Assembly: GCF_035083965.1 (NCBI RefSeq)
Contig: NC_089723.1
Coordinates: 34,289,193 to 34,353,192 of the forward strand
Origin: Branchiostoma lanceolatum
Lineage: Eukaryota > Chordata > Leptocardii > Amphioxiformes > Branchiostomatidae
Reading direction: 5' to 3'
Length of the DNA stretch: 64,000 bases
In this document: in pieces, positions 3,424-47,264 of the stretch
Layout of the letters: each line of letters opens with the position of its first letter
Position numbering within the stretch: the stretch's first letter is position 1
The notes under the pieces: model-generated
The model's input: the letters and a program-made list of their open reading frames with translations, nothing else
Databases searched by the model: none
What the model was told of the DNA's origin: nothing
Made by a program: the position numbers and the translations under genes

Positions 3424-3480
3424 TGACCTATGACCTCATATGACCATATGAGGTCATAGCTACAGCCATTATGAGGAAGC
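3424..3480 (+). promoter_or_regulatory. WSC-R1 proximal block: DR1 + palindrome + Ets-like site
   Basis: TGACCTATGACCT (3424-3436) is a perfect direct repeat of the nuclear-receptor half-site TGACCT with one-base spacing (DR1). It overlaps a perfect inverted repeat with 15-base arms (3428-3442 and 3445-3459) and a 2-base centre. GAGGAAGC (3473-3480) is Ets/PU.1-like. The same order is found upstream of all four other WSC genes. Binding is inferred from motif form only. Confidence 0.5.
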
Positions 3481-3548
3481 AATTGCTTTTTGTTCAGAGT
3501 GTTAGAGTGGCAGTGGGGACATTTCTTCCTTGCTTATCCAAGAACGTC

Positions 3549-6134
3549 ATGGAGACTTTGGTCCTAGTTTTGGGAGTTCTGTTTGCAGGATTATCGGCTG
3601 CTGATCCTCCGCCAGGTCTCTACACCGCGGAAGGTAAAGTTAGACTTTTATGTATGTAACGGTTTCTATTCGGATTGGATAAGGAAATAGACTGACAGAG
3701 AGAAACGAAAGTCACAGGCCATATTGAAACTTATGTCCAAGCAGATGTTAGAGTTGTAAGCTGTACGTTTTCTGACTGCCCAAAAACGTTCATATGGTCT
3801 TTTGATATAGTTTCTTTCCTAAACCTTGTACGAATAAAAGAAGAAAGCAGGTGGAAAGGGTGAAATCTGCTAGTGGGTCGATCGATATTAAACGTCATAT
3901 CAAAATTATTCCATGTCTGCAATTCCTTTTTTAAGTACATGGAGATCTATCGTATAGCAAGCTAATGGAATTACATATCTAATGTGTACCACAATACACC
4001 ACATGTATTGCAATACACAATGGATTATGTTATAATGTACATTGTACGAAAGTCTAAACTTATGTCGGTTTTTTGACAACTTTGTTCTTCTGCTCTTGAC
4101 AATTATTTTACACAGGAGTTGAATATGTCGGCTGTTTTGAACACGGTCAGCCGCACCAGGAACAAGTGCTCGAAGTACAAATTGCAGACTGTACTTCATC
4201 GGACACCGAGCCATGTTTAGTCCCCGCAACTTGCATCGATGCGTGCCAAAACGCCAGCTCAAACTACACCTACGTCGGTCTCAAATACCCAGGACAGTGT
4301 TTCTGTGACTCGGTGCTACGTGGAGTGAATCAAGCAGATTCCGTCGAAGGCATTCAGTGCGATGGGAGGTGTCCTGGTGACTTACAGCTTGCCTGTGGTG
4401 CCTCTAGCAATATGCTCGTCTATCTATGTAAGTTCGGGTTAGAAGCAGTTTCTAGATACATTCCACACAAAATATTCTTTCGTTCTGTAAATCATATCCA
4501 TGTACTTCCATATGCAATATAAACATTTCTGTGTGATGACAGATGTATCCCTAGCCCTGCCATATATATTTTTGTGTTCACTTGTAAATGAACTTGAATA
4601 CAATGAGTACTTCAATATATAATTACGTTGATTACGCTACTGTATTCGACACACGTTTGCTGTAATCCTAATGTACCCGTATAATAACAAGCAGTTCTCA
4701 ATAACGTTTGTTCCTTCAATATATATGGGAACCATTGTTTCAGGGACCAACATCCCTCCGCTGACAACAAGTCCAGTCATAATCACATGTAAGTCTCTGC
4801 TCCATCAGACATTTATAGGTACTCGAACGGCTCCTGTTAAATCGTAAACTTCTCTCACATGTCAGCTGCACTGCGTAGAAAGCACTTGAACACCGGTACA
4901 GTATGTGGCAACTTTATTTACCGACAAATTTATAACATAGAAAAGTCGACGGTATAGAATTTGCTTCATCGCAGATTTTCCATGACTTTTTTTATCAGAT
5001 AGCGCCACCGTGTCGGGCCCCACAACTAAACCAGAGGTTGTGTCGACTACAACGTACAGAGGAATTAAACACCCAACAAATAACACTGGTATGTAACATA
5101 ATGGTAATATAATCCCACACAAACACTCATAGAATGCCAAATCAAACACTCCTACCACTGCCTGGTTGTAAAAACTGAATGAGATGTAGTCTAGACTATA
5201 TAAACTGTTTCCTTAAACTGGTGCTGACTATATATAAAAAATCTGGAAAAGTACTATTTGGCATCATCATTGACTTTTTCTCCTCCCTCCCTTCTCAGGA
5301 CTTATAGCCGGAGTGACCGTAGGTGGCGTTGCTTTTGTTGGTCTTGTTGTGACTGTGGTCTTGGTCTACCTGCGGCGAAAGTGAGTTCAGTTAAACACAT
5401 TATTAATTCCATCCACCCGTGTAATCTAAAGTGATAAAACTTGACTTCCTCAATCTAATCTACCTTCATTTTGTATAACGTATAGTTTAAGTGATCACCA
5501 TCAAGACATTTTAACAACATAAATTCTGACATTTGAAAAACAAAATCTGACATCTGCTTGTTGAATAATTGAACGGACTTTTTTTTCAAAATACCAGAAT
5601 ACGTAGACTCACGCAGTCACTCTCAATATAATCACATTTTTTGTTCGAAACAGGAAAACGTCAGATGGCAAAAGCGCCCATGACCAAAGTACCAAGAGAA
5701 CACATTACGTCAATGGCCAATTCCTTGACAATGAACAGCGTTCACGGACCAATCAGGACGTTCCTGACAGGTCACATGACCAAGGCATCCAATCTTCTCT
5801 CCAATCCAACGCCTCAGATGTAGACTTATACCTTGAGCCAGGGGTACCCATAGACGATTATGAATATGTATGTTTTGATAATCGTAATCATTATGATACC
5901 CCACCTGTAACCAACATGTCAGGATGGCAGACTCCAGCGACCAATAATGATTTAGATTACGTAAACCAGCCAACAAACCACTTTTATGTCAATGCATCGG
6001 AAACTGGCGTTGATCGAGACTCCCTTGTGTATGAAGACGTCATCGTTCCCAAGCGGAACACGGATGGGGGCGGTGGACAGTACATGAACGTAAGCTACAG
6101 TCACAATCAAGACGAGACTTACATGAATATATAA
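3549..6134 (+). CDS. WSC-R1: single-WSC transmembrane receptor with Grb2/ITIM-type tail
   Basis: Six exons: 3549-3633, 4116-4427, 4744-4788, 4999-5088, 5299-5380 and 5654-6134; all introns are GT-AG. Exon 1 encodes a signal peptide (METLVLVLGVLFAGLSA). Exon 2 is one WSC domain: VGCFEHG, CIDAC, YVGLKYPGQCFCDS, CDGRC, LACG and MLVY match the WSC Cys framework, a presumed carbohydrate-binding fold. Exons 3-4 are a Thr/Pro stalk. Exon 5 is the TM helix (GLIAGVTVGG...), ending YLRRK. The tail (about 160 residues) has YVNG, YVNQ, YVNA, YMNV and YMNI (YxN, Grb2-SH2 type) and LVYEDV (ITIM form). The METLV start is chosen because it is conserved in R2 and R3; an in-frame ATG at 3471 is not. Likely a surface receptor recruiting SH2 proteins. 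Confidence 0.85.
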
Positions 6135-6454
6135 AACCCCTACACGTACCCACACAGACTACAATAAGAATATATAGCACATATACTAGTATATGTACAT
6201 AGCAAACATATGATGAGAGATAGCAACAACAATATGTCTGCTGATTTCTTTCATATTTTATGACATTAATGTTAGATAAGTAATTATGTTAGATAAGTAA
6301 TTGTAATTATGTAATACATGTATATGTATGTCATGACTGTACCAAACCTTGTCACACACAGAGTAGAATATATTGATTTATATGATAGATTCCATTCTAT
6401 GTCTTCATTTGAACTCATAGTTGCTTTGTTTGCAGCTCCAAACTGAAAACAAAC

Positions 6455-6460
6455 AATAAA
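6455..6460 (+). terminator. WSC-R1 polyadenylation signal AATAAA
   Basis: AATAAA lies about 320 bases after the stop. It sits in a block (AACTGAAAAC... TTTTATTCC) that is also found after WSC-R2, where the hexamer has diverged. Confidence 0.5.
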
Positions 6461-7261
6461 TGTTTTATTCCGAACACTTCGAATTTCTTTTGTGTAAGTT
6501 CCTCTTTTTCGCCTCGTGTTCCGAGTAATGCGTTAACTATGAATCAGTGACAGATTTAAAGATAATCATTCCGTTTTTCAATGGTATAGTCACCATACTC
6601 TATCTTAGCTGAAACTACAACTATAGAGTATATTATATACATTGTACATCGGTATTGATTTCGCAAACGCAGGAGTACAGCTACTGTGCATGAGGCTTCT
6701 GATGTGTGTGCACTCGTGTTGTAAAATATACATACAGTCAAACACAGCGCCTCCTATCAACCTGACCTGACTGTGCAAATAAGTCCCGCCAGTTCAGAAG
6801 TAAAAGGGAAACAGTTTATTTGATGCGGTGAATACAAAACGTAAAGTTTCAGTGTAACCGGGTTTCCGTCTGACATAACTTTACTTTCAAAACGGTGTAT
6901 AGAATGAATTTACTAAAAGTTAAAACGTTTCATGTGAGACCCTCTCTTTAAACTAGATACCCACAGACGATGCATGTCCCTACCCCCCTTAAACCTTCAT
7001 GAACAGACAGCATTTGGTCGAAAATAAATGAAAAACTATGAGATGGTTTGTAGGGGTAGGGTGCTGTGCCGATACACCGTAAAGGCAATTACAATGTTCA
7101 TGTCAAATGGCAAAGTACAGATACATGTAACTTACTGTACGCTGTATCCCTGGACTTTGTATTAGTTAATTCTAGACAATGGAACCGAAACCACACGCGC
7201 CTATTAAAAGTGACTCTCCCCTCTCTTTCACCGTAACAAAGTACAGGTAACTAGATAAATT
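6461..7261. other. Intergenic between WSC-R1 and WSC-R2
   Basis: No gene is seen. The first half resembles the sequence after WSC-R2 (about 10310-10700: TAAGTTCCTCTTTTTCGCCTC and GATAATCAT boxes), which shows that the duplication unit included flanking DNA. The last 60 bases (GTGACTCTCCCC to the DR1-like site) match the WSC-R3 promoter. Confidence 0.6.
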
Positions 7262-7309
7262 TGACCTATGACCGCGCACGGCGGATGACGTCAGCCTTCA
7301 TGAGGAAGT
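7262..7309 (+). promoter_or_regulatory. WSC-R2 proximal block: DR1-like + CRE + Ets-like
   Basis: TGACCTATGACC (7262-7273) is followed by a full palindromic cAMP-response element TGACGTCA (about 7286-7293) and GAGGAAGT (7302-7309). WSC-R3 has TGACCTCA where R2 has the CRE, so the CRE is specific to R2. Confidence 0.5.
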
Positions 7310-7396
7310 CATATTTTCTTTACGAGTGTAAATGTTGCGGTGAAAAATTCCAGATTTTATTGCTCATACTTGAGAACTTCGATTGGTCCTTGTGTC

Positions 7397-10001
7397 ATGG
7401 AGAGGTTGGTCCTACTTTTAGGAGTTCTGTTTGCAGGATTATCGGCGGCTGATCCTCCCCAGGGTCTCTACACCGCGGAAGGTAAATCTTTCCATGTTTT
7501 CATGTGTATGTAGCTATAGGTGACAACAGGGTCTGGCCAAACAAAAGACTGACAGCGACAAATATACGTGACAGCAGAGATAATTACAACCAATCACCAA
7601 GCAGAGTTTGTGAGGCGAAAACACGAAAACAGTCTTTCAGAATCGTAGTATTGATCCCACGGCACATTGATATGAAAGTGTATTTAAACACTGTTTGTTC
7701 CGACCATCGTTAAACCTTAACATTGGTGACAGGCTTATCTCAGCCTGATCAGGACTTTCATTTCTAGTTCTTACCCCAAACCACGGAGGTGGAAATGTCT
7801 GTTTTCAAATGATCCGTATATTGGTGAGGATCATAGAAATATGTTGAGAGTAAGTATACGGAGACACAATTCTGTAAAGTAAGGACGTTTGGTAAGTTAT
7901 ATTATGCCTCCTACGTATACGGTTTTACAGCTAAACTCGTGCCAATGTTTTCCGCAGGAGTGACGTACGTTGGTTGTTTTGAGCACGGCCTTCCTTTCCT
8001 CGAACAAGTGCTAAACGTCCACATCAGTGACTGTACTTTAACCCACCCTGAATCGTGTCTAACACCTGCGACATGCATCGATTTGTGTCAAAACACCAAC
8101 CCAAGCTACATCTACATCGGTCTGAAGTACCCAGGACAGTGCTTCTGTGACTCGACTTTACGAGGAGTGAATCAAACAGATTCCAACGATGGGATTTACT
8201 GCGATGCAAGATGCTACGACGACACACAACTTGCCTGTGGTACCTCATTCAATATGCTTGTCTATCGATGTAAGTTGTAGTTTGGCCTAGTTTCTAGATA
8301 ACCGTTGCGTCCTCGCAGAGTATTTTAAACTTCTATGCACTACGTATACGTTGTGCTTGTTGCTTCAATATGTATTATTCAGCATTCAGAGTCCCCGTTT
8401 GAACAAAATGTTTGTATGTATGCAATGAATATTCCCGAAGACTTTCATAGTGATTACACTACTACATTCAACACATCTTAATAAATAGTTTTGATCTTCA
8501 TACGGACAAATACAATGCTCAATAACATGTGTTTGATATATAAATCATTGTTTCAGTGTTTAACATTCTCCCGCTGACAAGTCCAGTCACATGTAAGTAT
8601 CAGCTCCGTCCGGAAGCTCTGTCAGACATAAATCAGTAATCATCATCAGTATCGTCAGTCCTATTCAGTGACAGGTGTCGCATCAGAAATCAGAAATAGC
8701 TGTTGATAGATAGTAAAATTCGATAACATGTCAGTGCGTGGCAGGAAATTAGATAAAAACAAACCGAAATATGGGGAAAGCATGTGACGACCTAGCCCGA
8801 CAAGTTCATTATCTGTTTGTACTGAATAATGGGCATAGAGGTTCTTCACTACAAGGTTTTCATGTCGGTTTGTTTTTTTCGCAGATAACGCCACCGTCCC
8901 GGGCTACACACTGTCAACTAGACCAGAAGTTGTGCCGACCACAACGTACAGAAGGGATAATCAACCACGGGTTAATATTGGTAGGTGACGACATATTTTC
9001 CTGTATAAACACGAATGCTATAATAAAACAAACAAAAACTGAATGAGTTGTTGTTTAGACAATTGATTGTTTTCTTACAACAATGCTGACAGAAATCTAA
9101 GTTCTAGAAAACAGACATGCCCATGATATTCTAGCACCATCATGTGTCTTTTTTCCCTTTTCAGCACTTATCGCCGGAGTAACCGGAGGTGTCGCTGGTC
9201 TTGTGGTTATTGTTGCTGCTGTTGTCTGCGTCTATATGTGGCGACGAAAGTGAGTTCAATTCCATCCACCCGTACAATCTGAATTGCTAAACTTGACTTC
9301 ATAAATATGAATTCTATGTAACGGAAGTTGTAACGTTATAATTCAAGATAAAAATATCATATCACAATCTAGACACTTTCATAACACCAATCCTGCCATC
9401 TATAATTTGATATCTTCTTGTTGAGATAATTGAAAACTACAAATAAATGGGAATTTTTCGTCCAAATGCCAAAAATATATCTAGACGTATACTCACAAAA
9501 ATTCTCTTCTTTTTTTTTCAATTACGAAACAGCAAAACAGAAGGTGACAAAGGCACTGGTACCGAGAGAACACATTACGTCAATGGCCAGTTTCTAGACG
9601 ATCAACAGCGTTCACGGACCAATCAGGACGCTCCTGAGATGAACCAACCCACCCCAACTCCCCGCCCATCCTCTGGTGTCTACCTGGAGCCAGGTGTACC
9701 CATAGACAATCATGAATATACATATATTGATAATCGTAATAACATTCCCCCTGTAACCAACATATCGGGTAGGCCGACTCTACCGACGTCCAATCAAAGT
9801 CCGTGTTGCGTAAACCAGCCACCAAACCACTCCTATGTCAATGTATCCGAGACTGGCGTTGGTCGAGATTCCCTTGTGTATGATGACGTCATGGTTCCCA
9901 GGCGGAACAGGGAAGAGGGGGGTGGAAGGTACATGAATGTGGGCTACAGGCACAATCAGGACGAGGCTTATGTAAATGTGGCGACCCCTCGGCGTTCCTA
10001 G
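7397..10001 (+). CDS. WSC-R2: single-WSC transmembrane receptor with Grb2/ITIM-type tail
   Basis: Exons 7397-7481, 7958-8269, 8557-8592, 8885-8980, 9165-9249 and 9533-10001 have the same phases as WSC-R1. Signal peptide MERLVLLLGVLFAGLSA. The WSC domain in exon 2 includes VGCFEHG, CIDLC, YIGLKYPGQCFCDS, CDARC, LACG and MLVY. A short Thr/Pro stalk precedes the TM exon (ALIAGVTGGVAG..., ending YMWRRK). The tail has YVNG, YVNV, YMNV and YVNV (YxN), YLEPG, YTYID and LVYDDV (ITIM form), and ends with TPRRS. It is the closest paralogue of WSC-R1 in ectodomain, tail and flanks, so the pair arose by tandem duplication. The second WSC Cys-to-Cys loop differs most. Ligand unknown. Confidence 0.85.
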
Positions 10002-11146: not shown

Positions 11147-11194
11147 TGACCTATGACCGCGCCCGATGTATGACCTCAGCCTTCATGAGGAAGT
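11147..11194 (+). promoter_or_regulatory. WSC-R3 proximal block: DR1-like + Ets-like
   Basis: TGACCTATGACC (11147-11158) and GAGGAAGT (11187-11194) have the same order and spacing (about 28 bases) as in WSC-R2. The flanking 60 bases upstream (ACAAAGTACA, AACCAGATAAATT) are nearly identical to R2. Confidence 0.5.
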
Positions 11195-11280
11195 AAATTT
11201 TCTTTCGTAGTGTAAACGCTACGGTGAAGAATTCCAGATTTTATTGCGCATACTTAAAAACGTCGGTAAGTCCTTGTGTC

Positions 11281-13891
11281 ATGGAGACGTTGGTCTTAAT
11301 TTTGGGAGTTCTGTCTGCAGGATTATCGAAAGCTGATCCCCCGAAAGGTCTCTACACCGCGGAAGGTAATGAGCCTTTGTATAGTTTACATGTATAGGTA
11401 TAACGCCACGCTCTAATAGTCAGACAAAAAGGCTGACTGAGACAAATAGTCATGACAGCAGAGATGTTTACAATCGCCAGGGGTCATATCTAAACCCAAT
11501 CTCCAAGCAGAGGTTGGGAGGTAAAAGGTTGAGGTTAACATTTCCCCCTATGAAGCCAATGAAACTCTATTGTGGTCGAACTCCCCCGCCCAAAACATTA
11601 TCCCCTTTATAGCCAGCGTTACTAAGATATCATTACCTCAGCAATACCTACGAAGGTATCGTTTTCGGTGTTTGGTTTTTTGTGCTGCATCATTTTGTTT
11701 TTTCCATGTAGAGTAACAGGAAGTGATCAATGGGCACATGTAATGTTAATCAAAACTTTTTTTCATAAACAATGAACTATGATTAAACAAACACACAAGA
11801 TACTAAAATATTTCACTGAGGTATGAGGTCTTCGGACTCGTGTTCTGTTTTGTGCATGTGATATGCAAAGTGGCTCAGTGAGGGTTATAGAAATAAGTTA
11901 AGCATGTGCTTTAACAACTGCTTATATAGCATTATGGTATCACACGAAGACGCATTTTATGTGTACAGTATAACTCATGACTATTGTTTTACACAGGAGT
12001 GACATACACTGGTTGTTTTGAACACGGTCGACTACATGATGAAGAGGTGCTCCAGGTCCAATCAAATGCTGAGTGCACTTCTACCCAACTCGGATCGTGT
12101 CTAACTCCTGCAACCTGCATCGATTCGTGTCGAAACGCCAGCACAAGCTACATCTACATCGGTCTGAAGTACCCAGGACAGTGCTTCTGTGACTCGATGT
12201 TACGTGGAGTGAATCAAACGGATTCTGTCGATGGCATTCATTGCGATGGGAGATGCACTGGCAACAGACAACTTGCCTGCGGTGGAACACATAACATGCT
12301 CGTCTATCAATGTGAGACCTCAAACAGTTTCACTAACTTAACTATTTTTTAAAGTTTTTGCTATGAGCAGCTTTCAGCGACTGAGATCAAAAACACTTGA
12401 ACTACATTTTTTCACAACAAATATCCAACATTTAGGGATTAGCACCTTGAGATTATGAGTTAGTATAACTACTGAGTTAAACGATATCGATTGTAACTTT
12501 ATCATTCAATGCAACTGTTCTGAAAAAATAAAGGGGGCTTTGTCATAAATGCAATATTGCTCTAATTATGATGTATCATCATCCTTTTCATGGGACTCGT
12601 TTTACAGTTTCAAGTGTTCCTCAGTCGACCACCTGTACTAGCACAGGTATGCCCTCCATTTTTAACCATTAAGCTACAATTGTGTAAATATAAATGAAAT
12701 CACACTCAGTAAACAATGGCACGCACCACATCAAACAAGTCAGACATCTTAGACCTTACTGCAAACTGACAAGTGGTTTATCAATGAGACGTGACCTATG
12801 AATCACGTGCGATGTTTCACCAGATTTGACTTCCATACACTTACACATTACAGTGGTATTCATTATTTCACAGGCATTACAAATTCTGAGGGCTACGGGA
12901 CTACAGGTGATATCACGGTGACTACGCCTATCAAGACAAATGAAATACCACAGATCAACACAGGTAAGTGTTTGTGAACTTCAGCAGTCTCAAACTAAGT
13001 AAAATATCTTATACAGTGTGTCTTATGTTAATACATGTAGCAAACGTATGTAGATCTTGTTTGTCCACACAAAAAATGAAAGCGATGTAAAGCTAATTTC
13101 AGCCAATGTTTACCTTGATTTTCCAAAAGCACTCATAGCTGGAGCGGCCGCTGGTGGGGCTGCCGTGCTGATTGTTGGGACTGTGGTTGGTGTTTGTCTT
13201 TGGCGAAAGTGAGTACACTATAAACTGTTTATGTTGTACCACAGGTATTGTATGGATGATTTTGGTGCAGGTAGAAGAATGTACAGAGGGACATATCATC
13301 AGTTAGATTGTCATCATATACCTACACTAGCCAACGTTTCATGTACCTGCGCATCGCCACTAAAGTTGATGTTAGCCCTGCGATTATATTGCTGTTTGAA
13401 TAAAGTTACTTTTTGGTTTCCTTCTTAGGAAATATGGACAGAGACGTGATGACAAACCAAGCAGTTCCCTCGCACTGCAAGATGTGAGCCACCATTGCAC
13501 CTCTCATCCACCGTCCGCCTCCCACGGTAACCCCACCGTACCACCGAACCTCTCCAACATAGACGCCCTGTACGCCAAACCTGACAAGAAAAGGAAACCA
13601 AAGATGTCCAGTCCAGACGACCCCTCCTATCAGGACGTCATCCCAACGGGTGCTCAGCACCAGTATGCCACAGTCAGCGATAACCAACCTCCAAACTTAA
13701 TGGTTCGAAAAGACCCAAATCCATATGACTCTATTCAAAATGATCCTCAGTACGCTGTTGTCAACAAGCGCCCGAAATATAGGCCCAATGTGGATGTTAA
13801 TCCAATATACATGGGTGAGGGGGCAGAGGTTTCACCAAAGCAAGAAACCTCAGACACGCTTGAGATGGTTGATAATGTCATTTATGAATAG
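11281..13891 (+). CDS. WSC-R3: chimeric WSC receptor with YxxV-type tail
   Basis: Exons 11281-11365, 11997-12311, 12608-12646, 12874-12963, 13130-13208 and 13429-13891. The signal peptide (METLVLILGVLSAGLS) and WSC exon (TGCFEHG, CIDSC, YIGLKYPGQCFCDS, CDGRC, LACGG, MLVY) are of the R1/R2 kind. From the TM exon on (ALIAGAAAGGAAVLIVG...) it resembles R4/R5. Its tail shares NIDALYAKPDKKRK, DPSYQDV, HQYATV, YDSI and PQYAVV with WSC-R5. None of the YxN motifs of R1/R2 remain. The 3' flank also matches that of WSC-R4. The most direct reading is recombination in the stalk introns that joined an R1/R2 ectodomain to an R4/R5 tail. Confidence 0.85.
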
Positions 13892-13912
13892 ATTTACATT
13901 GTCGCAAATTAG

Positions 13913-13918
13913 AATAAA
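13913..13918 (+). terminator. WSC-R3 candidate polyadenylation signal
   Basis: AATAAA 22 bases after the stop codon. It would give a very short 3' UTR, so later signals may also be used. Confidence 0.35.
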
Positions 13919-14842
13919 ACAAAATATTGCGATAACAACAACAATGGTCATAGAAATGTAGCTTTGTAATATTAGAAACAGCACTCCCCAGCCTGAGGTC
14001 TATCATTGTCATAGAGATAATGCTCAGCTTATCATTTGATATTGCTGGAATTGTGTCTCCATACAAGATGATGCACGTATTCTATTTCTGTCTCTGCTAT
14101 TGGGGTTATCTATTCATACATGTAGATTTAAAGTCTGAACATACAACATGATGGTCCCGTTAACTACCCTCTGTAAACATAATGCTTACGCAGTGTAAAA
14201 CTCCTATAGTACTGTGTATATATGTATAGTACTGTTAAATTTGCGTTATATAAAGATAAATTACTGTAGTTGTTCACAAGCAACACAACTCTTAATGGCA
14301 ATTAGATTAGACATTGTATTTGTATTCACATATGGTAAACTTTCTTATCGAATGCTTATGACATTGGTTTACAACTATGACTGGTAACAATAATGGAATG
14401 GAAATAGCCCTATCGTCTGGGGCAAGAAAACTTGGAGGAAACAAATGGGCAGAACATTATAGATTGTTTCACATTCGCACAGTTCGCATTCATAACGCCA
14501 GGGGCGTCAGCGTGATTAAATGATGCACAAACAAAAGAGATATTGATTGCTTTGGTGTCCTTGTTCTATTGAATTACTCAAACTCTGGCCAGAGTATGGT
14601 GTGGAACTTACACATGTTTTTGGTTGGATCGTTCAAATGTATATATCAGATCATATATATATATATATATAACGTTATGTATATACCAACCAACCAACTA
14701 ACTACATGTGTAGGGGTCCACATCACTATGCTCTGGCTAAATTCCAGGGAACATTTCAGACTTATGCAAATCAGCATCAGTAAATCTTGAGCCCTTTTCT
14801 ACTAACGTAAGAAGCACGTTGAACCCTGGAAAACATGCGAGT
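13919..14842. other. Intergenic between WSC-R3 and WSC-R4
   Basis: No gene is seen. It matches the flank after WSC-R4 (18930-19560) in several boxes, such as TATTGGGGTT, GACATTGGTT and AATGGAATGGAAATAGCCCT. A short (TA)n run lies at about 14650-14672. The last 150 bases (TCAGTAAATCTTG, CCCTTTTCTACTA) match the WSC-R5 upstream region. Confidence 0.55.
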
Positions 14843-14890
14843 TGACCTCTGACCGCACAACACTTGGTCCCCCTAAACTAAACAGGAAGT
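14843..14890 (+). promoter_or_regulatory. WSC-R4 proximal block: DR1-like + Ets-like
   Basis: TGACCTCTGACC (14843-14854) followed by ACAGGAAGT (14882-14890). The block around it (AACATGCGAGT upstream, CCCCCTAAAC between) is shared with WSC-R5. Confidence 0.5.
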
Positions 14891-14950
14891 ACCTGTTTAT
14901 ACTCGGCACGAGTACGACTGTATTCTCTGTCACACGTTTAGTGTATAATC

Positions 14951-17900
14951 ATGTTCAAAGTTGTAGTGTTCGTTACTGTGCTGGTAATTTTCCACCCACA
15001 AAGGACTGTGGCAGATTGTACTGACAGCTACATTGTCCCAGGTGTGTAGCCGAAAGTTTTATGGTTGACGTCTTACCTAAAAACGATAAACGCAGATTCG
15101 AATTCAGTTACTTCCTGTTGTGTTTGTTTGTAAGTTAGACACAGCTCATCTTCAATGCCTGTGGTTTGTCAATGATTGCGCGCTCCAAGTATCGTTAGAA
15201 GTCTTAATGCATAAAACCTTTCTTCAGAACTCATTCTTTTCTAAAATTTCAAGTCTATGCGTTGAAACGAGTGTATAAAGATATGTTATTGCATGTACAG
15301 ATCCAGAGTTCGTCGGCTGCTATCAAAGAAGTCCGGGTCAGGCAGACCCTTTTCTACCTTATGACACACAGACAACGGTGTCCACCGCCACTGGCTGTGT
15401 GTCCTGCTGTGCAGCAGAAACTCAGAGCTTCAATTTTGCTGGGATAGTAACACGTCCTGACCTCCAAGTTGAGTGTACATGTGGACAGAGGAGTGAGCAA
15501 TACTATGACTTTATAACCTCCCATGGTGCAAATGGTTGCTCTCCATGTCCTGGGAATAATGGTCAGTCGTGCGGTCTGTATGGGGTAAGAGTATCCGTGT
15601 ACAAAGGTAAGAAAAGGTCAACGTCTCTCTCAAGTTTCGTTACGGGTGGATGATGATAAACTTTTAACTTGATACAGCCCATGAAATAAGGTCGACTAAA
15701 GGTCGACTATATATATGAGGCATTATTTCCTGTCATCCATGTAACGTTGGGTAACATAAATTCGCGGGGTACTTAAATTCGGGATTTTTCGAAAACGGGG
15801 TATTTAGGGATATGTGCTAGATGCAACATCAGTAATACCGCTAGAAATGCAAACTTGACAGACTAACGTATTCAGAACACTGTCTGAAAAGGTTCGATAA
15901 CCATGCATTAGAAGTTGGCTACGTCAAAAACTCTCCGTCCCTTATTGTCACAGTCTGAGGGCTTCGTGGGAGAATTATACTACATAGTTGTTCGAAGGTT
16001 TATAAGACAAATGTCACATCCGCTTCCTGCTCAACACAATTATTTACAATACAACTTATTAGAATCTCTTTTGCTAACCTACAACTGGACTCTAAGTGTG
16101 ATTAATCATCAAAACGCCTCTTTGTTGCTACAACCAATGGCTACGGCACTACGGTGAATTTTCCCGCCGCCATATTCGTTACCCAGAATCCTGCTATTCG
16201 GCAGACGACAAACGTTTGCGAGGAACACTTTTTTGTCCAAATGTTGTGTGTGATAGTGGACTGATGGCGATATTTTCCTCAAAGTTTGCTCTTAGCACAA
16301 GCAGAAACACATGGACATAGTAGTATTACCATTTCTACTGCATCCAGCTAACGCCCCGATGAATAATGTACAAATTTCCATGACAGTGGGGGTCGACTTT
16401 GAGTAACGTTGTACCGACTCAACACACGGATTGTTCCCGGAGGCCTGATGTGTGCGGTACGGCCGTTTTTTCGTGTATTTTTTTTACTTGGACACGTCTA
16501 TATCCATAGCGCTCTCCTCAAGCCAAGGATGGAACGAATAGCTGCTGTATAAAATGTAATTAGCGGTAAGATATTCAAGACGAATCTTCTCTCCCGAATT
16601 AATGTTCACCCCTGTCCGACAGCACCGTCATTGTGCGTGCGGCGGACGGTAGTTTCAAGTTTAAATATTATGGTGTCAGCACGACTAGAGACAAAATCTA
16701 CCATATATATGATTAGTGCAAAGATAGTACATGATACTGACAGAATAATAGAAAAAAAGGATGGTTTATTGTTCTGCTAGATTGATTTCAGTCAACCATT
16801 ATCGGAAAAATCCCGAATTTATGTTACCCAACGTTAGTTTGTATGAACATTTTGTCACATTTTAGTTCCAGAGTTCAACTTGACAACAACAACAACGCAC
16901 TCAATTCAGGTGTCCATTCGTGAGTACTGACAATTGAAGTAACGACTTTTATAGTTATTTCCCGTGTTGTTGTTGATTTGTGGATATGGTACTACATCTT
17001 AAGTATGACATATTATATTTGACTTAAGAGATAAATCAATAGCATAAAGTTACTGAGGGTTATCTTTAAAATGTCACCTCAGTGCATTCGTCTCTTGAGA
17101 CGACACGAAGTCCTTCCTTACGACCATCGTCACAGCCACCTGACGTAACATCAGTTCCTAACGCCGGTCTATCAACGAGGCCTTACACCTCTCGATCACT
17201 AGCGCAAACTTCTGATTCGACCCAACGTCTGACATCGGAATCTGCAATATTGTTGACAACAAGCAACATGGGTGATTCGGGCTACAACACAGGTAATGCT
17301 ACGGTCACATTTCCAAACCGGGGCCCGGCCGGGCTGTTTGCGGGAACAAAAAATTAAAATGTACGTCAAGAAATGTACACAAATCATGCTCATGATTGAT
17401 ATCTTTTATGTCTGCGTGTTTTGTTGTCTTTTATATCATACTTTTCGTTCTCCCAAACTGCCCGGCCGGGTCCCGGTCTGGAAATGTGACCGTAGCATAA
17501 AGAGGTATCAATCAATCAATCAATCAATCAATCAAACAAGCAATCAAGCAATCAAACAAGCAATCAAGCAATCAATCGATCAACCAACCAACCAACCAAC
17601 CAACCAATCAATCAATCAACCAACCAACCAACCAATTAACCAACCAATCAATTAATCTGTATTGAATCTTATTTCTCACAAATATAGCTCAGGCCGTCTA
17701 CTTTAGTAACTGGCATTTATGATAGATTTGTACGAATTTCTTAACGATATAGACATTCATCTTAGCCATTAACTGTCGCACAATAAATCTTTCCCACCAG
17801 CCCTGATCGCCGGTTCAGCAGGGGGAGGAGCCGCTGTTCTGCTGGTCATCTGTGGTGTTGTTGCTTTCTGCGTGATCCGCAAAAGGTGAGATCATCTTAT

Positions 17901-18913
17901 AAGATACTTAGGTAGACTACATTTCCCTTTACCTTTTTGAAATAAGACGGGGACATTTTGTCTTGTTGAAGAGTACAAGCTGTATTTCCGGGCAGATTTT
18001 GTATCCACTCACACCGGAATGGATCCGTACTTTTATCGATAAGTGTGGTGGTGCTCAAGATTGTTTGTTCTCCTAAAACACGGGACCTCTGTTTCACGTC
18101 CTATCCGAGGGACGTCCCTAGTCGAAGTTAGGTACTCATTTACACCTAAGTCGAGTGAGGATATTGGTGTAAATTACCTCCAGGATCTGAGTCACCAACC
18201 TATATCACAAGCCCATCATGCTGTGTGAATTGCATATCTTATTTAATTCCAAGAAAGAAAAAAAAATTAACTAATTACATCGTCTATTTGTATTTTTCGT
18301 CATTTTTAGGTCATCAACTTCCAAGAAAAACAATGTTCCCCCAGGATCTATTAATTTAAACGAAGTTGGTGGTGGTACAGGTGGCCGGAGGAATCAGACA
18401 TTTCAGCACGATGCAAACACAGAGGTTCTGTGCACAAACACCACAGACCCGGAGGACCCGTCCTACCAGGACGTCATACCCACCGGTGCCCAGCATCAGT
18501 ACACCACTGTGCAGGACGACTCCCATCCTTACACCTCTCTTCAGGACGAGCCCAACTCCTACACCACCTCTCAGGACGACCCCCATCCTTACACCACTCC
18601 TCAGGACGACCCCCATCCTTACAGCTCTCTTCAGGACGACTCCCATCCTTACACCTCTCTTCAGGACGAATCCCATCCTTACACCGCGCTCCGTGGCAAG
18701 CCCAACCTTTATGACTCTATCAAAGATGACCACCAGTACTACAATGTCCAGAAGGGCCGTAAGCATGATCCTAACGTAGAGACAAACCCTCTGTACGGGA
18801 CTGGCGGTGTTGACAACACAGCATATGATCAAGAGGGCCCTCTGTCCAATGACGACGATAGGGCTCCTACTAGTTCTGTGTGTGAGATGATGGATAACAA
18901 CCTTTATGAATGA
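14951..18913 (+). CDS. WSC-R4: WSC-like receptor with ITAM-spaced tyrosine repeats
   Basis: Exons 14951-15041, 15301-15606, 16866-16919, 17083-17292, 17801-17885 and 18310-18913. Signal peptide MFKVVVFVTVLVIF. Exon 2 is a divergent WSC-like domain: FVGCYQ, GCVSCCAAE, FAGIV, CTCGQ, CSPCPG, SCG and VSVYK keep the WSC order, with a characteristic CVSCC. Exons 3-4 are a long Ser/Thr stalk. The TM exon is ALIAGSAGGGAAVLLV..., ending CVIRKR. The tail starts with PSYQDV and QYTTV, then a 10-residue repeat (HPYTSLQDD type) gives YTSL, YSSL, YTSL and YTAL. Three of these are spaced as YxxL-x6-YxxL-x6-YxxL, the ITAM form. YDSI, YYNV and a terminal LYE follow. Two DNA elements sit in introns 2 and 4. 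Likely activating if the motif is phosphorylated; this is inference. Confidence 0.85.
15744..16834. mobile_element. Non-autonomous TA-flanked DNA transposon in WSC-R4 intron 2
   Basis: The ends ACGTTGGGTAACATAAATTC and its reverse complement are inverted; homology continues through a TCGGGATTTTTC block. It is flanked by TA on both sides (15742-15743 and 16835-16836). The homologous intron of WSC-R5 has the empty site (CATG-TA-GTTTGTAT, about 22109), which confirms a 1091-bp insertion with a TA duplication, as in Tc1/mariner-type elements. No transposase frame was recognised. Confidence 0.75.
17297..17497. mobile_element. MITE (about 200 bp, TAA duplication) at the WSC-R4 exon 4 donor
   Basis: Long terminal inverted repeats of about 50 bases start TGCTACGGTCACATTTCC and read back at the other end. 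It is flanked by TAA (17294-17296 and 17498-17500). WSC-R5 has the uninserted GGTAAAG at the same place. The 3-bp TAA duplication is typical of PIF/Harbinger-type MITEs. The insertion point is the fourth base of the intron. Confidence 0.7.
17506..17656 (+). repeat. (CAAT)n/(CAAC)n simple repeat
   Basis: Imperfect tetranucleotide tract in intron 4 of WSC-R4. WSC-R5 has only about four CAAT units at the orthologous point (22583-22600), so the tract expanded in R4. Confidence 0.8.
17960..18115. repeat. Interspersed repeat R2, copy 1
   Basis: Resembles 62713-62850. Shared boxes include AGTACAAGCTG, CCACTCACACCGG, GATAAGTG and ACAGGACCTCT-like sequence. It lies in intron 5 of WSC-R4 and is absent from the shorter WSC-R5 intron. 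Confidence 0.55.
18505..18696 (+). repeat. 30-bp coding minisatellite in the WSC-R4 tail
   Basis: Six to seven copies of a 30-base unit, each encoding a 10-residue block with one tyrosine (CAGGACGAC TCCCATCCT TAC pattern). WSC-R5 and WSC-R3 have two or three non-identical blocks here, so the array expanded in R4. Confidence 0.9.
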
Positions 18914-19650
18914 TTCTTTTAGCTGAGTTTTCGCGGTGATAACCAGCAAGCCGACATTTCAGATTCTTTTAGCTGAATGTAACAAGTTATGATATCCAAT
19001 CACTTCACTTCACTATATCTTGCCACACAGCTACTATGGTACAAAACATTGTTGCTATTCTTAGTGCCGTTTTCATGACTTGAATATGTAAGTAAAGTAA
19101 TGTTGATAACAGCAACTTTTCCTACAGGTCTGCTTAATGTACTAGTACTACTATAAAGTTAAATGGTACTGTAAACTGTTAAGACCACATTGTCTATATT
19201 GTGCAGATAGATATAACACATCTACTATTGGGGTTGTCTATTCAAAGATCTGAATTCTGAATATACATTAAAAACCTTTTGGATACTCACTGTATACACA
19301 CATCTTTATACTGTGTATACTTCTGTAGTACTGTGTGTGTCAACTACTGTTAAATTTGTGTTATATACATGTAGTTGTTCGCTAGCAACACAATTCGTAT
19401 TTCCAATCAAATGTATACCATTGGACTTGCATTTCGATGGTAAAAGCTTTCTTATCTGATGAATGATTATGACATTGGTTGACAATTACGCTGGTAACAA
19501 TCATAATGGAATGGAAATAGCCCTATCATCTTGGCCAAAAAAACTTTGAGTGCTCAGCAAAGTGCTAAAAAAACAAATGAATGGCCACAACATTCTAGAT
19601 TGCACAGTTCACATTCATAATGCCAGGGGTATTAGATTTATCAAATAATA
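18914..19650. other. 3' flank of WSC-R4, no gene seen
   Basis: Homologous to the WSC-R3 flank. Contains GTAAGTAAAGTAATG where WSC-R5 has a clean AATAAA, so the polyadenylation site is uncertain. Confidence 0.5.
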
Positions 19651-19654
19651 TACA

Positions 19655-20110
19655 CAAACAAAACCATAGAATTTCCTCGTTAATCATGCAAATGCTGTCT
19701 TTTTTGCATAATCTTGTGTTTTATCTTGTACATCTCTGTCTAAGCTACCTGCACATCCAAAATCATGAAAATTCGTTGCTCCTTTCTTCGGTTATCCTCT
19801 TTGGAAGATTTCAACAAAAGTAAACGGCCATGCAGTTCCACAGTTTGATGCTAGGAGACTCAAACTTAACTTACGGTAACTTCTTTCAAAGTACAAGAGC
19901 TATCTACCACCCAACAGTCGTGACCATAGCTTGTTCACTGAACACGAAACATCAAAACCGGAAGTGCCCTGTAGTACCATAAAAAGCCACCAGAGGCCTA
20001 AACTCGAGGTCTCCGATCAACATACCCACATACCAAATATCAATAAAATCCATCTAGGTCTTCTAGAGTTATCGTGGTGACACACATACATGTACACTGA
20101 ACGAACACTC
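19655..20110. repeat. Interspersed repeat R1-like block
   Basis: Contains the boxes ATTTCCTCGTTAATCATGCAAAT, CCAAAATCATGAAAAT-CGTTG, and later CATACCAAATATCAATAAAATCCATC, in the same order as copies near 33600-33790 and 58500-58680. Non-coding degenerate repeat. Confidence 0.55.
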
Positions 20111-20402
20111 CTGCTATAAACATAACCTCCACTTTTGGAGGTAAACAAACAGTGATATTAATGGCTTTGGTGTTGACTTACAGCTAGACCCTAACAGATG
20201 GTGCACTTCGAAAAGAACATGGGCGTAACTTGTGATATAGACGCTCGTTAAAGAACCAACCACACATGTCGATAAGTGTAGAGGTTCACCCCAGTATACT
20301 CTGGCCAAATTCGTGGGGATTCGTCCCACGCTACTCAGTATCAGTAAATCTTGCACCCTTTTCTACTATAGATGCACATTGAACCCTGTCAAACATGCGA
20401 GT

Positions 20403-20443
20403 TGACCTCTGACCGCACGACTCGTTCCCCCTAAACAGGAAGT
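20403..20443 (+). promoter_or_regulatory. WSC-R5 proximal block: DR1-like + Ets-like
   Basis: TGACCTCTGACC (20403-20414) and ACAGGAAGT (20435-20443), as in WSC-R4 but with slightly shorter spacing. Confidence 0.5.
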
Positions 20444-20507
20444 ACCCAACGGTACACAAGTACGGCTGTATTTTCCGTCGCTGTAATCACACCTTTTCTG
20501 TATAACC

Positions 20508-23493
20508 ATGTTCATAGTAGTGCTCTTCATTACTGTGTTGGTGATTTCCGTCCCACAAAGGACTGTGGCAGATTGCACTGACAGCTACGTTCTTCCAGGT
20601 TTGTAGCAGAAAGTTTTATGGTTAAAGTCTTACCTGTCGATAAACACAGATTCATTTACTTCCTGTTGTGTTTGTATGCAGGTTAGACAAGTTCAACGAT
20701 GTGACAATGCTTGCGTGCTCGTAGATATTTTATCGAACGAATGCATCCAACTATTTCTGAAGAACACAAGATGCGGATATTGAAGTCAATGCGCTAAAAC
20801 GAGTGTACTAAAATTATGATATCACATGTACACTCTGTTACAGATCCAGTGTTCGTCGGCTGCTATCAAAATATTTCGAGTCAGGCAGACCCTTTTCTAC
20901 CTTATGACACACAAACAACAGTGTCCACCGCCACTGGCTGTGTATCCTGCTGTGCAGCAGAAAACCAGAACTTCAATTTTGCTGGGATAGTAAGAACAAC
21001 TCCTGAACTCCAAATCAAGTGTACATGTGGACAGAGGAGTGAGCAATACTATGACTCTATAACTGACTTTGAATCAGGTGGTTGTACTCCATGTCCTGGG
21101 AATAATGATCAGTTGTGCGGTGAGAACTCGGGGGCGAGGGTATCCGTGTACAAAGGTAAGAATGAGTCGTCAACTTTCCATGTGACTTTCTCTCTTTCTT
21201 TCTTTGCTATGGATATTCTAATAATGCGTGAAGAAATAAATAGAACAAGAGTCCGTAAGACACAATTCTCTGTGAAGTATCTATAGTGTGTACATTTTGG
21301 CTAAGGTGCTTTATTATTCTCCTTTGCTATTGATTGGCTAGTTGTAGGATAAATGCATGAAATGGATATTGATGTAAGGTGCGAGGTCACAGGCCCTGAT
21401 TTGACAGGGAAACAAGGCACACTATCCACGAATAGTTATTAACATTCTCCAAATGTCAGATCTAATATCATATTCAAATAACAACTATTACAATTCCACA
21501 CACACAGCATCAGTTGGATAATAGACCGATCCTGTCGAACACCATACCAGCTGTTCGACTGGGAGGTCAGCAGGTTCGGTTCCGGGGAACGTTGGTCTGA
21601 AAAATAGGCTTCTCATGCACACGTTCGTAGCAAGAACTCACGATTCCGTTGCTACATTGGTATGTAACTTAACAGTGACCACAGCAAGTAGCGAAAGAAA
21701 CTACCCTTACGACATTGCCCAACATTGCTAAATCGTGTGCGGGATAAGAGGGCTGTACCATATGCGTGTCAATGTAGGGGTGCAATTACGATATTGCATT
21801 GCCGATAAAAGCAGTTACGGTGTAAAAAAAAAAGACATCGTGCATCATCACGCCCAACCTAGCAAACGATATGCCAAGTTACACACCAATGCGACAAGGG
21901 GATCGTGAGTTCTAGCTGCGAACATGAATCAAAAGCATTCAGTCTAATACTCCCGTCAGGAGGTCATCCTCCTTCCAGGAGTAACAATCAACTAGTTTCA
22001 GATATTCCACCATATTTCAAACAGCAAAGTCACGGTTGTGCTAAATGTATAACTTGATAAGGTCGAGTAACGCTTAACTACATGTATGAGGCATTATTTG
22101 AGGTCAACCATGTAGTTTGTATCCTCAATCTGTCATATTTCAGTTCCACAGTTCAACCTGACAACAACAACGTTCTCAACTCAAGAGTCCATCTGTGAGT
22201 ACCTACAATTGAACCTACCTGAATTATTTCCAGTATTGTTTGTGATGTGGATGTGGGGCTAGTTCCGCTAGAAATATTGTATTTGACTTTATAAATGAAT
22301 CAATAGAATAACATTTTGACGTACTTAGTGTTGCCTTTAAAATGTTACCTCAGTGCATTCGTCTGTTGAGACAACACGCTTGACGACAAGTCCTTCTGTA
22401 CGATCATCGTCCAAGCCACCTGACGTAGCATCAGTTCCGAACAACGGTCCATTCATCGGTTCATCCTCTGGATCACTGACGGAAACGTCTGATTCGACCC
22501 AACGTTTGACATCGGAATCTGCAACATTGTTGACAACAAACAACATGGGCGCGTCCGGCGACAACACAGGTAAAGAAGTGGCAATCAATCAATCAATCAA
22601 TACTGGTTTTAATTCTTACAAATATAGTTCAAAACCTTTTTTTTATAGTAGCTGGCAATCATTGTACATTCGAATTAATTTCTTAAATATCTAAACATTC
22701 ATCGTCGCGACTTAAATCTTGCCCACCAGCCCTGATCGCCGGTTCAGCAGGGGGAGGAGCCGCTGTTCTACTGGTCATCTGTGGTGTTGTTGCTTTCTGC
22801 TTGATCCGCAAAAGGTGAGACCAGCTTAGGGATCAGATTTTTTTTTTTATTGGGTGGGCTGACTCTCTTCGCTGCCAGGGGCTGAATAGCGAGGAGCTTA
22901 GGTATCAGACATTCTTCATTCTTCTTCTGTAGAGTGAGATGAGAGAAATATACATATCCTATTAAAGACCATAACGAATTGTATTATATATTTCTATAAT
23001 TTCTAGGTCATCAACTTCCAAGAAAAACGATTTCCCCTCTGGATCAATTAACTTGCACGAGGTTGGAGGAAGCACAGATGGCCTAAGGAATATGTCAAGT
23101 CAGCCGAACGATGCAAACATAGACGCTCTGTACGCAAAGCCTGATAAGAAAAGGAAGAACCAACAGCAGCCACCAACCACCGGCGACCCCGAGGACCCGT
23201 CCTACCAGGACGTCCTACCCACCGGTGCCAAGCATCAGTACGCCACTGTTCAGGACGACTCCCATCCCTACAACGCGGTAGGCGACGAGACAAACCTCTA
23301 TGACTCTATCCAAGATGACCCCCAATACGCCACTGTCCAGAAGGGCCGCAAACAAGGTCCCAATGTAGAAACAAACCCAATGTGCGGGAAAGGTAGTGTT
23401 GACAACACAGCATATGATCCGGGCCTGCTGTCAAACGACAACGAGAGGGCCCCTAGTGTGTGTGAGATGATGGATAACATCATCTATGAATAA
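20508..23493 (+). CDS. WSC-R5: WSC-like receptor with YxxV/I tail
   Basis: Exons 20508-20598, 20844-21155, 22144-22194, 22354-22569, 22730-22814 and 23007-23493, phases as in WSC-R4. Signal peptide MFIVVLFITVLVISVP. The WSC-like exon keeps FVGCYQN, GCVSCCAAE, FAGIV, CTCGQRSEQYYD, CTPCPG, LCG and VSVYK. The Ser/Thr stalk (exons 3-4) and TM exon (ALIAGSAGGGAAVLLV, ending CLIRKR) are close to R4. The tail has ALYAKP, PSYQDV, QYATV, PYNAV, LYDSI, QYATV, TAYDPG and a final IIYE. Unlike R4 it has no pair of YxxL at ITAM spacing; most motifs are YxxV. AATAAA lies 100 bases after the stop. R4 and R5 are recent duplicates with diverged tails. Confidence 0.85.
21506..21590 (+). repeat. tRNA-like (SINE head) sequence in WSC-R5 intron 2
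   Basis: CATCAGTTGGATAATAGACC resembles an A box and CAGGTTCGGTTCCGG resembles a B box (GGTTCGANNCC) about 50 bases later. A cloverleaf was not established and no 3' tail was seen. It is probably a SINE head or tRNA pseudogene rather than a functional tRNA. Confidence 0.35.
21608..21940. mobile_element. Diverged MITE-like inverted repeat in WSC-R5 intron 2
   Basis: The arm at 21620-21669 (CGTTCGTAGCAAGAACTCAC...) pairs with the reverse complement of 21877-21926 (...GTGAGTTCTAGCTGCGAAC), about 50 bases at roughly 80% identity, enclosing about 210 bases. WSC-R4 lacks it. The outer ends and target duplication are unclear. Confidence 0.5.
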
Positions 23494-36962: not shown

Positions 36963-37045
<83 letters not shown>

Positions 37046-43703: not shown

Positions 43704-46804
<3,101 letters not shown>

Positions 46805-47264
46805 TGAAATATACTATAAGTTATGGCATGATGCAATACACCTTTAGTTGGAATGATCTGTTAACGGTGTACGTCAAAATAACATTGTACGAAAGAACCA
46901 ATAGAGGCCGGGACGCTAGCACGGGCTACTGTGACATGTACTCTGACATTCATGGGCAACAATAAGATGGCTGGCTCTTATATCTAACTAGTTTTGCCAA
47001 ATTGTCTCTCCAATGATATGTATATAAAACATTGATGTCCAGACCTTGTTTGCGGCGGGTTAGGAAAAAAAAACATTTTCAAGTATTTCAAAAACGTGTT
47101 TATTTCAAGTATAGAGTATCTCCTTTGTGTTGTTGAAATCAATTAAAGAATATCAAAAAGTTTGCATTCTTCTGTTATAACCTTTGAGGCCGTCCTTGTG
47201 ATTACTTTGTTTACCCCATTTACCAATAGATGAGGTCAGACGTTATTTATGTAACGGCAAAACA

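Follow-up and report, generated by a model that had tools for sequence, protein, structure and literature searches.

Five tandem WSC-domain receptor genes in Branchiostoma lanceolatum and an apparent tail swap in the third

A mosaic gene within a tandem array

Can one type of recognition domain be joined to different signalling tails outside the immunoglobulin (Ig) receptors of vertebrates? The question is raised by a 64,000-nucleotide window of the Branchiostoma lanceolatum genome (assembly GCF_035083965.1, contig NC_089723.1, positions 34,289,193 to 34,353,192 of the forward strand), in which five neighbouring genes on the same strand, here called R1 to R5, are predicted to encode type I surface receptors with a WSC or WSC-like ectodomain, their coding sequences (CDSs) spanning 3549-23493. 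The first-pass annotation, made from the letters alone, had described five six-exon genes in one orientation, each with such an ectodomain, one transmembrane (TM) helix and a tyrosine-rich tail, and this description is borne out by our rebuilt models, Pfam searches and a TM scan. Splice boundaries of the following models were picked by eye from the genomic sequence.

3549..6134, + strand: R1 gene (exons 3549-3633, 4116-4427, 4744-4788, 4999-5088, 5299-5380, 5654-6134), with signal peptide, WSC domain, stalk, TM helix and a tail with five Y[VM]N and LVYEDV
7397..10001, + strand: R2 gene (exons 7397-7481, 7958-8269, 8557-8592, 8885-8980, 9165-9249, 9533-10001), WSC receptor, tail with four Y[VM]N and LVYDDV
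11281..13891, + strand: R3 gene (exons 11281-11365, 11997-12311, 12608-12646, 12874-12963, 13130-13208, 13429-13891), R1/R2-type ectodomain with R4/R5-type tail (HQYATV, DPQYAVV, YDSI, YQDV)
14951..18913, + strand: R4 gene (exons 14951-15041, 15301-15606, 16866-16919, 17083-17292, 17801-17885, 18310-18913), divergent WSC domain, tail with eight Yxx[ILV]
20508..23493, + strand: R5 gene (exons 20508-20598, 20844-21155, 22144-22194, 22354-22569, 22730-22814, 23007-23493), divergent WSC domain, tail with HQYATV, DPQYATV and YDSI

By sequence comparison R3 is a mosaic, being R1/R2-like from the promoter to exon 2 (and in the DNA of exon 5 too) and R4/R5-like in exon 6 and the 3′ flank, and it apparently arose by a tail swap between neighbours. 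At the informative protein sites of its exons 1-2, 65 favour R2 and three R5, whereas exon 6 gives two for R2 and 40 for R5 (Fisher's test against exons 1-2, 6e-24); those of exon 5 are undecided (five for R2, seven for R5). In DNA, two stretches of R3 match R2, each at 77%: one starts at 11031, takes in exon 1 and ends within intron 1 at 11473, and the other covers exon 2 (11964-12316). Exons 3-4 were matched to neither group by blastn, exon 5 is again R1/R2-like (70 and 67%), and from 13544 onwards the match is to R5 (68%), with R4 matched at 13613-13794. Comparison in 200-bp windows, taken every 140 bp, places the switch between the end of exon 5 (13208) and about 13544; the final window (14640-14839), which runs into R4, was disregarded.

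13209..13543, + strand: putative tail-swap junction of R3, in intron 5 or at the start of exon 6
14093..14536, + strand: R3 3′ non-coding flank, 444 bp, matching the R4 3′ flank (19221-19663) at 70% (E 5e-60) and not the R5 flank

The location of R3 between R2 and R4 is the position expected for a fusion by unequal crossover; as to direction, either R3 may be the derived gene or the tails of R1/R2 may have been replaced. Through the mosaic a single ectodomain type therefore sits on two tail types, which strengthens the analogy with paired receptors.

The architecture of the five genes is uniform. Each has six exons, all 25 introns begin with GT and end with AG, the intron phases are 1,1,1,1,2 in every model, and each joined CDS is open through to a single terminal stop. 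Between the genes, exon lengths vary solely by multiples of three, which supports the models. Exon 1 encodes a hydrophobic leader, exon 2, with symmetrical phase 1-1, the entire WSC domain, exons 3-4 a stalk (36-49% Ser/Thr/Pro), exon 5 the TM helix, the single internal TM segment of each receptor, and exon 6 the entire cytoplasmic tail. Poly(A)-like words lie within 900 bp 3′ of each gene (ATTAAA alone in R2 and R4), although such words are common and the evidence is weak. Further copies of the array genes were not found in the window by tblastn at E up to 1, no relative was confirmed among prokaryote and viral contigs, and NCBIfam (four pieces), Rfam and tRNA scans returned no match.

Tails, ectodomains and upstream elements

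The five tails are each encoded by a single exon.

5654..6134, + strand: R1 tail exon, with Grb2-type motifs
9533..10001, + strand: R2 tail exon, with Grb2-type motifs
13429..13891, + strand: R3 tail exon, homologous to the R5 and R4 tails
18310..18913, + strand: R4 tail exon
23007..23493, + strand: R5 tail exon

As judged by alignment, these tails fall into two unrelated classes, R1/R2 and R3-R5, the R1 and R2 tails being identical to that of R3 in only 12 and 17% of columns. From R1 to R5 they hold 11, 9, 9, 14 and 8 tyrosines in 159, 155, 153, 200 and 161 residues, that is 51 in 828, compared with three in 407 in a local control of two adjacent SRCR-type tails (read by eye from open reading frames). 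Motif expectations come from shuffling every tail 20,000 times. Y[VM]N occurs five times in R1 (0.12 expected) and four times in R2 (0.10) but not in R3-R5, so that the YxN motifs noticed at first pass in R1/R2 hold up; the R4 tail has one YxN of another kind, at chance level. YMN and YVN, as forms of YxN, are Grb2-type sites. Yxx[ILV] is found 4, 5, 4, 8 and 5 times in R1 to R5 against 1.57, 1.26, 1.33, 1.52 and 0.98 expected (P = 0.05, 0.003, 0.027, 0.0001 and 0.0005). Chance is accordingly rejected as the source of Y[VM]N in R1/R2 and of Yxx[ILV] in R2, R4 and R5, while the excess of the latter is weaker in R3 and marginal in R1.

An ITIM-like LVYxDV (ITIM, immunoreceptor tyrosine-based inhibitory motif) had also been ascribed to R1/R2. 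It is present once in each, as LVYEDV and LVYDDV, conserved in both and absent from R3-R5, but canonical ITIMs are no more frequent than by chance (P = 0.30 and 0.23) and were rejected as the defining signal. Motifs of YATV type occur in two members of the other class, with HQYATV in R3 and R5, DPQYATV in R5 and DPQYAVV in R3. Between the R3 and R5 tails, positions within three residues of a tyrosine are conserved in 43 of 67 cases versus 29 of 80 elsewhere (P = 0.0006; 0.0006 to 0.004 across three window widths). The R3, R4 and R5 tails share a C-terminal -YE (DNVIYE, 13886-13891; DNNLYE, 18908-18913; DNIIYE, 23488-23493), in which tyrosine is the last-but-one residue.

The R4 tail contains a tandem repeat.

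18500..18685, + strand: R4 tail tandem repeat, 30-bp in-frame unit in 6.2 copies, which puts tyrosines 10 residues apart

The spacing of an immunoreceptor tyrosine-based activation motif (ITAM), Yxx[LI]-x6-12-Yxx[LI], is found in R4 only, as three overlapping Yxx[LI]-x6-Yxx[LI] pairs within and immediately after this repeat, and alignments show the R3 and R5 tails to be without such an expansion. The ITAM spacing reported for R4 at first pass is thus real, but it is a by-product of a 10-residue tandem repeat that sets the tyrosine interval, and is not in itself evidence that Syk binds. Intron 2 of R4 carries an insertion of about 1.09 kb (15742-16836) with perfect 23-nt terminal inverted repeats, and R5 is uninterrupted at the corresponding site (22113/22114).

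The ectodomains are encoded by the following exons.

4116..4427, + strand: R1 WSC exon, phase 1-1, Pfam match
7958..8269, + strand: R2 WSC exon, phase 1-1, Pfam match
11997..12311, + strand: R3 WSC exon, phase 1-1, Pfam match
15301..15606, + strand: R4 WSC-like exon, phase 1-1, eight framework cysteines and one more
20844..21155, + strand: R5 WSC-like exon, phase 1-1, eight framework cysteines and one more

The Pfam WSC model (PF01822) scores over the gathering threshold in R1 (36.5 bits, E 5.8e-9), R2 (35.7 bits, 1e-8) and R3 (35.9 bits, 8.7e-9) and slightly under the 27.8-bit cut-off in R4 (25.4 bits, E 1.7e-5) and R5 (26.6 bits, E 7.2e-6), so narrowly that "WSC-like" is a fair label for the latter two. 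Matched by eye, an eight-cysteine framework (first Cys, CxxxC, CxC, then Cys at +3/4 and +8) can be placed in all five; beyond it R1-R3 have one extra pair of cysteines, and R4/R5 one extra in exon 2 and one in exon 1. This framework, with its four disulfides, and a CGG motif have been described for yeast Wsc1 and Kremen1 (PMC9024836); CG is present in all five WSC exons and the third G in R3 only. Searched against solved structures, a profile of the five exons matched the WSC domains of Kremen1 and of Fusarium FgrAldOx (structure 9N3U; PMC13094651) at E 7e-5 each, whereas the R1 exon by itself matched the fungal domain at 2.5e-5 and Kremen1 at E 0.29 only. No Pfam match to LRR (leucine-rich repeat), kringle or CUB was obtained in R1-R5 at E up to 1.

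Exon 2 is 69% identical pairwise among R1-R3 and 76% between R4 and R5, but only 16-23% between the groups, and the ectodomain that the first-pass annotation took to be shared by the array is therefore closely shared among R1-R3, with R4/R5 standing apart. Pairwise BLASTP of the R3 and R5 WSC exons found no useful similarity (E 0.33), so that the case for their kinship is made by Pfam, cysteines and gene structure. Positive selection in these exons, a possibility raised at first pass, was not shown. The ratio of nonsynonymous to synonymous change (omega) in R1-R3 is 0.22-0.37 by NG86, 0.29-0.46 by maximum likelihood (ML) and 0.40 and 0.63 by YN00 (two of three pairs), and these exons look constrained rather than diversified. 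For R4-R5 omega is near 1 (0.86 NG86, 1.10 ML, 1.42 YN00), values that rest on few synonymous changes; the nonsynonymous changes cluster in codons 53-91, with only two or three synonymous ones per window and windows stopping at codon 91. WSC proteins in fungi are reported to bind glucans, and because a fungal WSC lectin binds beta-1,3-glucan (PMC9252488), a microbial or algal polysaccharide is a fair guess for the ligand.

Upstream of the five genes, a motif search located the following elements.

3424..3435, + strand: TGACCTATGACC element upstream of R1 (-125)
7262..7273, + strand: TGACCTATGACC element upstream of R2 (-135)
11147..11158, + strand: TGACCTATGACC element upstream of R3 (-134)
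14843..14854, + strand: TGACCTCTGACC element upstream of R4 (-108)
20403..20414, + strand: TGACCTCTGACC element upstream of R5 (-105)
3474..3479, + strand: AGGAAG of R1, 38 bp past the element
7303..7308, + strand: AGGAAG of R2, 29 bp past the element
11188..11193, + strand: AGGAAG of R3, 29 bp past the element
14884..14889, + strand: AGGAAG of R4, 29 bp past the element
20437..20442, + strand: AGGAAG of R5, 22 bp past the element

The window holds six exact copies of TGACCTNTGACC, compared with a mean of 0.017 per simulated 64 kb (60 simulations). Five of them precede the ATGs of R1-R5, at -105 to -135, and AGGAAG follows 22-38 bp downstream in all five promoters. We take TGACCTNTGACC to be a DR1 nuclear-receptor site (HNF4, RXR, COUP-TF), and AGGAAG is presumably an ETS core. 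Allowing one mismatch gives eight copies against 1.07 expected, the two extras (54198 and 54477) lying inside the coding repeats of an LRR receptor gene described below. In a promoter control in which any of the five segments could be the source of the word, 300 random sets had a best total of at least 8, versus 2 observed, but these sets take no account of how R1-R3 are related among themselves, or R4 to R5, and copies within each group are not independent.

Between the two groups, blastn at E 1e-3 matched no upstream region. Among random pairs, 112 of 1000 have a 12-mer in common with no more than one mismatch, and 29 of 1000 do so when its two positions must agree to within 30 bp. For a 15-mer with up to one mismatch, which R2/R3 versus R4/R5 attain, the figures are 15 of 1000 and, with position, 1 of 1000; R1 versus R4/R5 needs two mismatches over 15 nucleotides (64 of 1000, or 18 of 1000 with position). 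Sequence support for a common promoter block between the groups is moderate, and the block moderately supports the paired-receptor analogy. The sixth exact TGACCTNTGACC (2955-2966, - strand), 594 bp ahead of the R1 ATG, may serve R1 as a further element or pertain to a different gene. The R1 copy overlaps a perfect inverted repeat (3428-3459, 15-nt arms, 2 nt apart); no like palindrome lies over the elements of R2-R5, although R2 has a shorter one at 7283-7296.

Candidate outputs and competing explanations

We put at roughly 0.5 the probability that R1-R5 form a tandem array of type I WSC receptors that signal via phosphotyrosine docking tails, with opposed outputs of R1/R2 and R3/R5; the R3 mosaic and the motifs carry most of the weight in these odds. 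The opposing polarity is suggested by analogy: R1/R2 are read as Grb2-coupled because of the general meaning of YxN, and R3/R5 look inhibitory because their YATV core is common with BbLcLRR, an inhibitory, Lck-regulated LRR receptor of Branchiostoma belcheri. BbLck or human Lck is reported to phosphorylate BbLcLRR, which has DDYATV and HDYSEV among its motifs, whereupon it associates with SHIP1 and less with SHP1/2, and it lowers T-cell receptor (TCR) signalling in Jurkat cells unless three tyrosines, one of them Y539 of YATV, are mutated (PMC8211107). BbGrb2 has been reported to associate with a phagocytic receptor (PMC10199209), and Slp76, GADS and Itk are described from amphioxus (PMC5431462). 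Of the opposing tails proposed at first pass, where the stress lay on the ITIM of R1/R2 and the ITAM spacing of R4, the two classes stand, but their sign is inferred; the amphioxus data point to R3/R5 as the inhibitory-looking members, and the meaning of YxN points to R1/R2 as the Grb2-type ones.

If this reading holds, the WSC domain would bind a glycan or protein ligand, the receptors would dimerise (GxxxG occurs at the equivalent place in all five TM exons) and a Src-family kinase would phosphorylate the tails. YVN and YMN of R1/R2 would then recruit Grb2/GADS-type adaptors for a response such as phagocytosis or mitogen-activated protein kinase (MAPK) signalling, and YATV and YAVV of R3/R5 would recruit SHIP/SHP-type phosphatases and dampen it. 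R4 would be an R5-like tail whose repeat created ITAM-spaced YxxL/I, for which either sign is possible. Were the shared promoter block to drive the genes together, a single cell could weigh two outputs of one common ligand against each other, much as a paired receptor system does. Tentatively, and with the odds leaning against it, we extend this to an independently evolved, non-Ig, WSC-based paired receptor system of an invertebrate chordate, in which one ectodomain type would be carried on a Grb2-type activating tail (R1/R2) and, as a result of recombination close to the intron that precedes the tail exon, also on an inhibitory tail of SHIP/SHP type (R3), with one promoter block common to all, and in which in-frame minisatellite expansion would set the number of docking sites and, in R4, perhaps the sign.

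Activating members of vertebrate paired receptors are typically short-tailed with a charged TM residue. R1/R2 versus R3 display clustered, closely similar ectodomains with different signalling parts, but none of the five has either the short tail or the charged TM of an activating member. The paired-receptor-like recognition system proposed at first pass thus keeps its tandem array, its common ectodomain on two tail types and its non-random motifs, and lacks such a member. Several further observations weigh against opposed outputs. No TM core contains a charged residue (0/5). The division into two tail classes is not clean because Yxx[ILV], taken at first pass as the mark of R3-R5, also occurs in R1 and R2 (4 and 5 copies, beside 4, 8 and 5), and the sole canonical ITIMs of the array sit in R1/R2. 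Conservation near tyrosines is weak in R1-R2 (P = 0.01-0.09) and R3-R4 (0.05-0.12) among 12 tests overall and fails in R4-R5 (0.59-0.92); tyrosine columns alone have no significant extra conservation in any of four tail pairs (Fisher's test, 0.31, 0.47, 0.69 and 0.22); and constraint on the R1-R2 tail is loose (omega 0.61 NG86, 0.76 ML, 1.30 YN00). FrLRR, the Grb2-associated precedent, has a predicted glycosylphosphatidylinositol (GPI) site and no YxN tail. If R1-R3 and R4-R5 count as one case each, a shared 12-mer with one mismatch is ordinary (112/1000). YxxPhi motifs also fit endocytic sorting.

This last point leads to an explanation that we consider unlikely but not far-fetched, namely that R1-R5 are endocytic or scavenger receptors whose WSC domain binds polysaccharide and whose YxxPhi motifs drive AP-2 uptake, so that the tails differ in trafficking or adaptor strength and send no opposing signals. 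Yxx[LIMFV] exceeds expectation in all five tails (5, 5, 4, 8 and 5 against 1.97, 1.49, 1.57, 1.73 and 1.23; P = 0.0001 to 0.0475), and a neighbouring gene has an SRCR domain. Y[VM]N, repeated five and four times in R1/R2, is not an uptake signal known to us, however, the two neighbouring SRCR-type tails are tyrosine-poor, and 8-14 tyrosines per tail exceed the one or two usual for sorting. The glucan binding of fungal WSC proteins (PMC9252488) would suit such uptake as well.

We give a similarly low chance to the possibility that all five tails have the same sign, as a docking family in the manner of LAT or CD28-type co-receptors, whose members would differ in the adaptors they choose (Grb2, PLC-gamma, SHP2, Src-family kinases) and have no inhibitory partners. 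YMN and YVN are of Grb2 type, SH2 domains that bind Yxx[ILV] need not inhibit, and Yxx[ILV] occurs in both tail classes, but R3 carries a different tail on the same ectodomain type and the YATV core, as Y539 of BbLcLRR, is one of three sites on which inhibition in Jurkat cells is reported to depend (PMC8211107). We find it distinctly improbable that the receptors are not immune but sense developmental or mechanical cues at the surface, as an animal counterpart of the yeast Wsc sensors or as a Kremen-type co-receptor: the domain order (signal peptide, WSC, Ser/Thr-rich stalk, TM, tail) is that of yeast Wsc sensors, the stalk composition fits and the Kremen1 WSC domain is the nearest solved animal relative, but kringle and CUB were not found in R1-R5 by Pfam, the tails are rich in SH2-type motifs, and developmental receptors, in our judgement, do not usually form clustered, recombining families with a repeat in a tail.

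Known systems and neighbouring genes

Among the matches listed in openly licensed PMC literature, no WSC-based paired receptor family was seen. Kremen1/2, which include the nearest solved animal relative, have a Kringle-WSC-CUB ectodomain and a Wnt/Dickkopf role; they share the animal WSC domain and differ by their kringle and CUB. Yeast Wsc sensors are ordered as signal peptide, WSC, Ser/Thr-rich stalk and TM, and to our knowledge are not known for phosphotyrosine docking; unlike R1-R5 they are fungal and signal to the cell wall integrity pathway. The yeast Wsc1-type sensors resemble R1-R5 in having one WSC domain with a four-disulfide framework, and contact between the Kremen kringle and Dkk1 is described in the same source (PMC9024836). 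BbLcLRR is similar in being a membrane receptor with a predicted WSC domain, tail tyrosines and a functional YATV core as in R3/R5, and gut expression is reported; its main ectodomain, however, is LRR, absent from R1-R5, and in the excerpt of that report it is one gene, with no Grb2-type partner sharing its ectodomain (PMC8211107).

Vertebrate paired receptors such as KIR, LILR and SIRP likewise combine similar ectodomains with different TM and tail parts through domain shuffling, but they are Ig-based, whereas R1-R5 all have long tyrosine tails (153-200 aa) and uncharged TMs. The same likeness and difference apply to the Xenopus XFL family as reported (PMC2413239). Paired logic, cited from vertebrates in the first-pass annotation, has a precedent in the fester co-receptor (FcoR) family of the tunicate Botryllus: these are clustered type I receptors of an invertebrate chordate with tails described as varying among ITIM, hemITAM and YxxI/L/V core motifs, although with Ig and sushi ectodomains, fester-family partners and a polymorphic allorecognition locus (PMC12065747). 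Because of this precedent, mixed tyrosine tails are no vertebrate monopoly.

Other receptor-like genes occur in the window. On the - strand, 54099-57773 is a single-exon LRR type I receptor gene (1207 aa from the likely ATG, TM placed by eye). Its 806-aa tail has 28 tyrosines, mostly in four in-frame minisatellites (51, 129, 75 and 93 bp), with 11 YxN (YEN/YDN), four Y[MI]TL and 11 YVT[FL]; it joins both motif classes of the WSC array in one polypeptide, by the same repeat mechanism as R4. A Pfam match of these repeats to the Rpb5 N-terminal domain (E 9e-13) is probably spurious. On the + strand, 26480-30402 and 35500-39421 are two related receptor-like genes; in both a TM is likely (by eye) and the tail has few tyrosines. 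SRCR is above the Pfam cut-off in the first and a weak match (E 0.003) in the second, and they share an N-terminal cysteine-rich segment (CxGPPPxYNNS) that has no Pfam match. A fourth gene (43700-46805, + strand) combines an EGF domain and a sub-threshold F5/8 type C match with a Thr-rich stalk; its tail is very short and a TM is likely, both as read by eye.

Should R2 and R3 share a ligand but signal in opposite directions, the paired-receptor design would have arisen on a non-Ig scaffold outside vertebrates. Since exon 6 encodes the tail in full, a single recombination immediately upstream of it replaces the output without altering recognition, and the array would, if so, show a simple genetic route to paired receptors. 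The origin of balanced activating and inhibitory signalling would be directly testable, given that the genes are only five and small and that amphioxus kinases, adaptors and phosphatases are already known.

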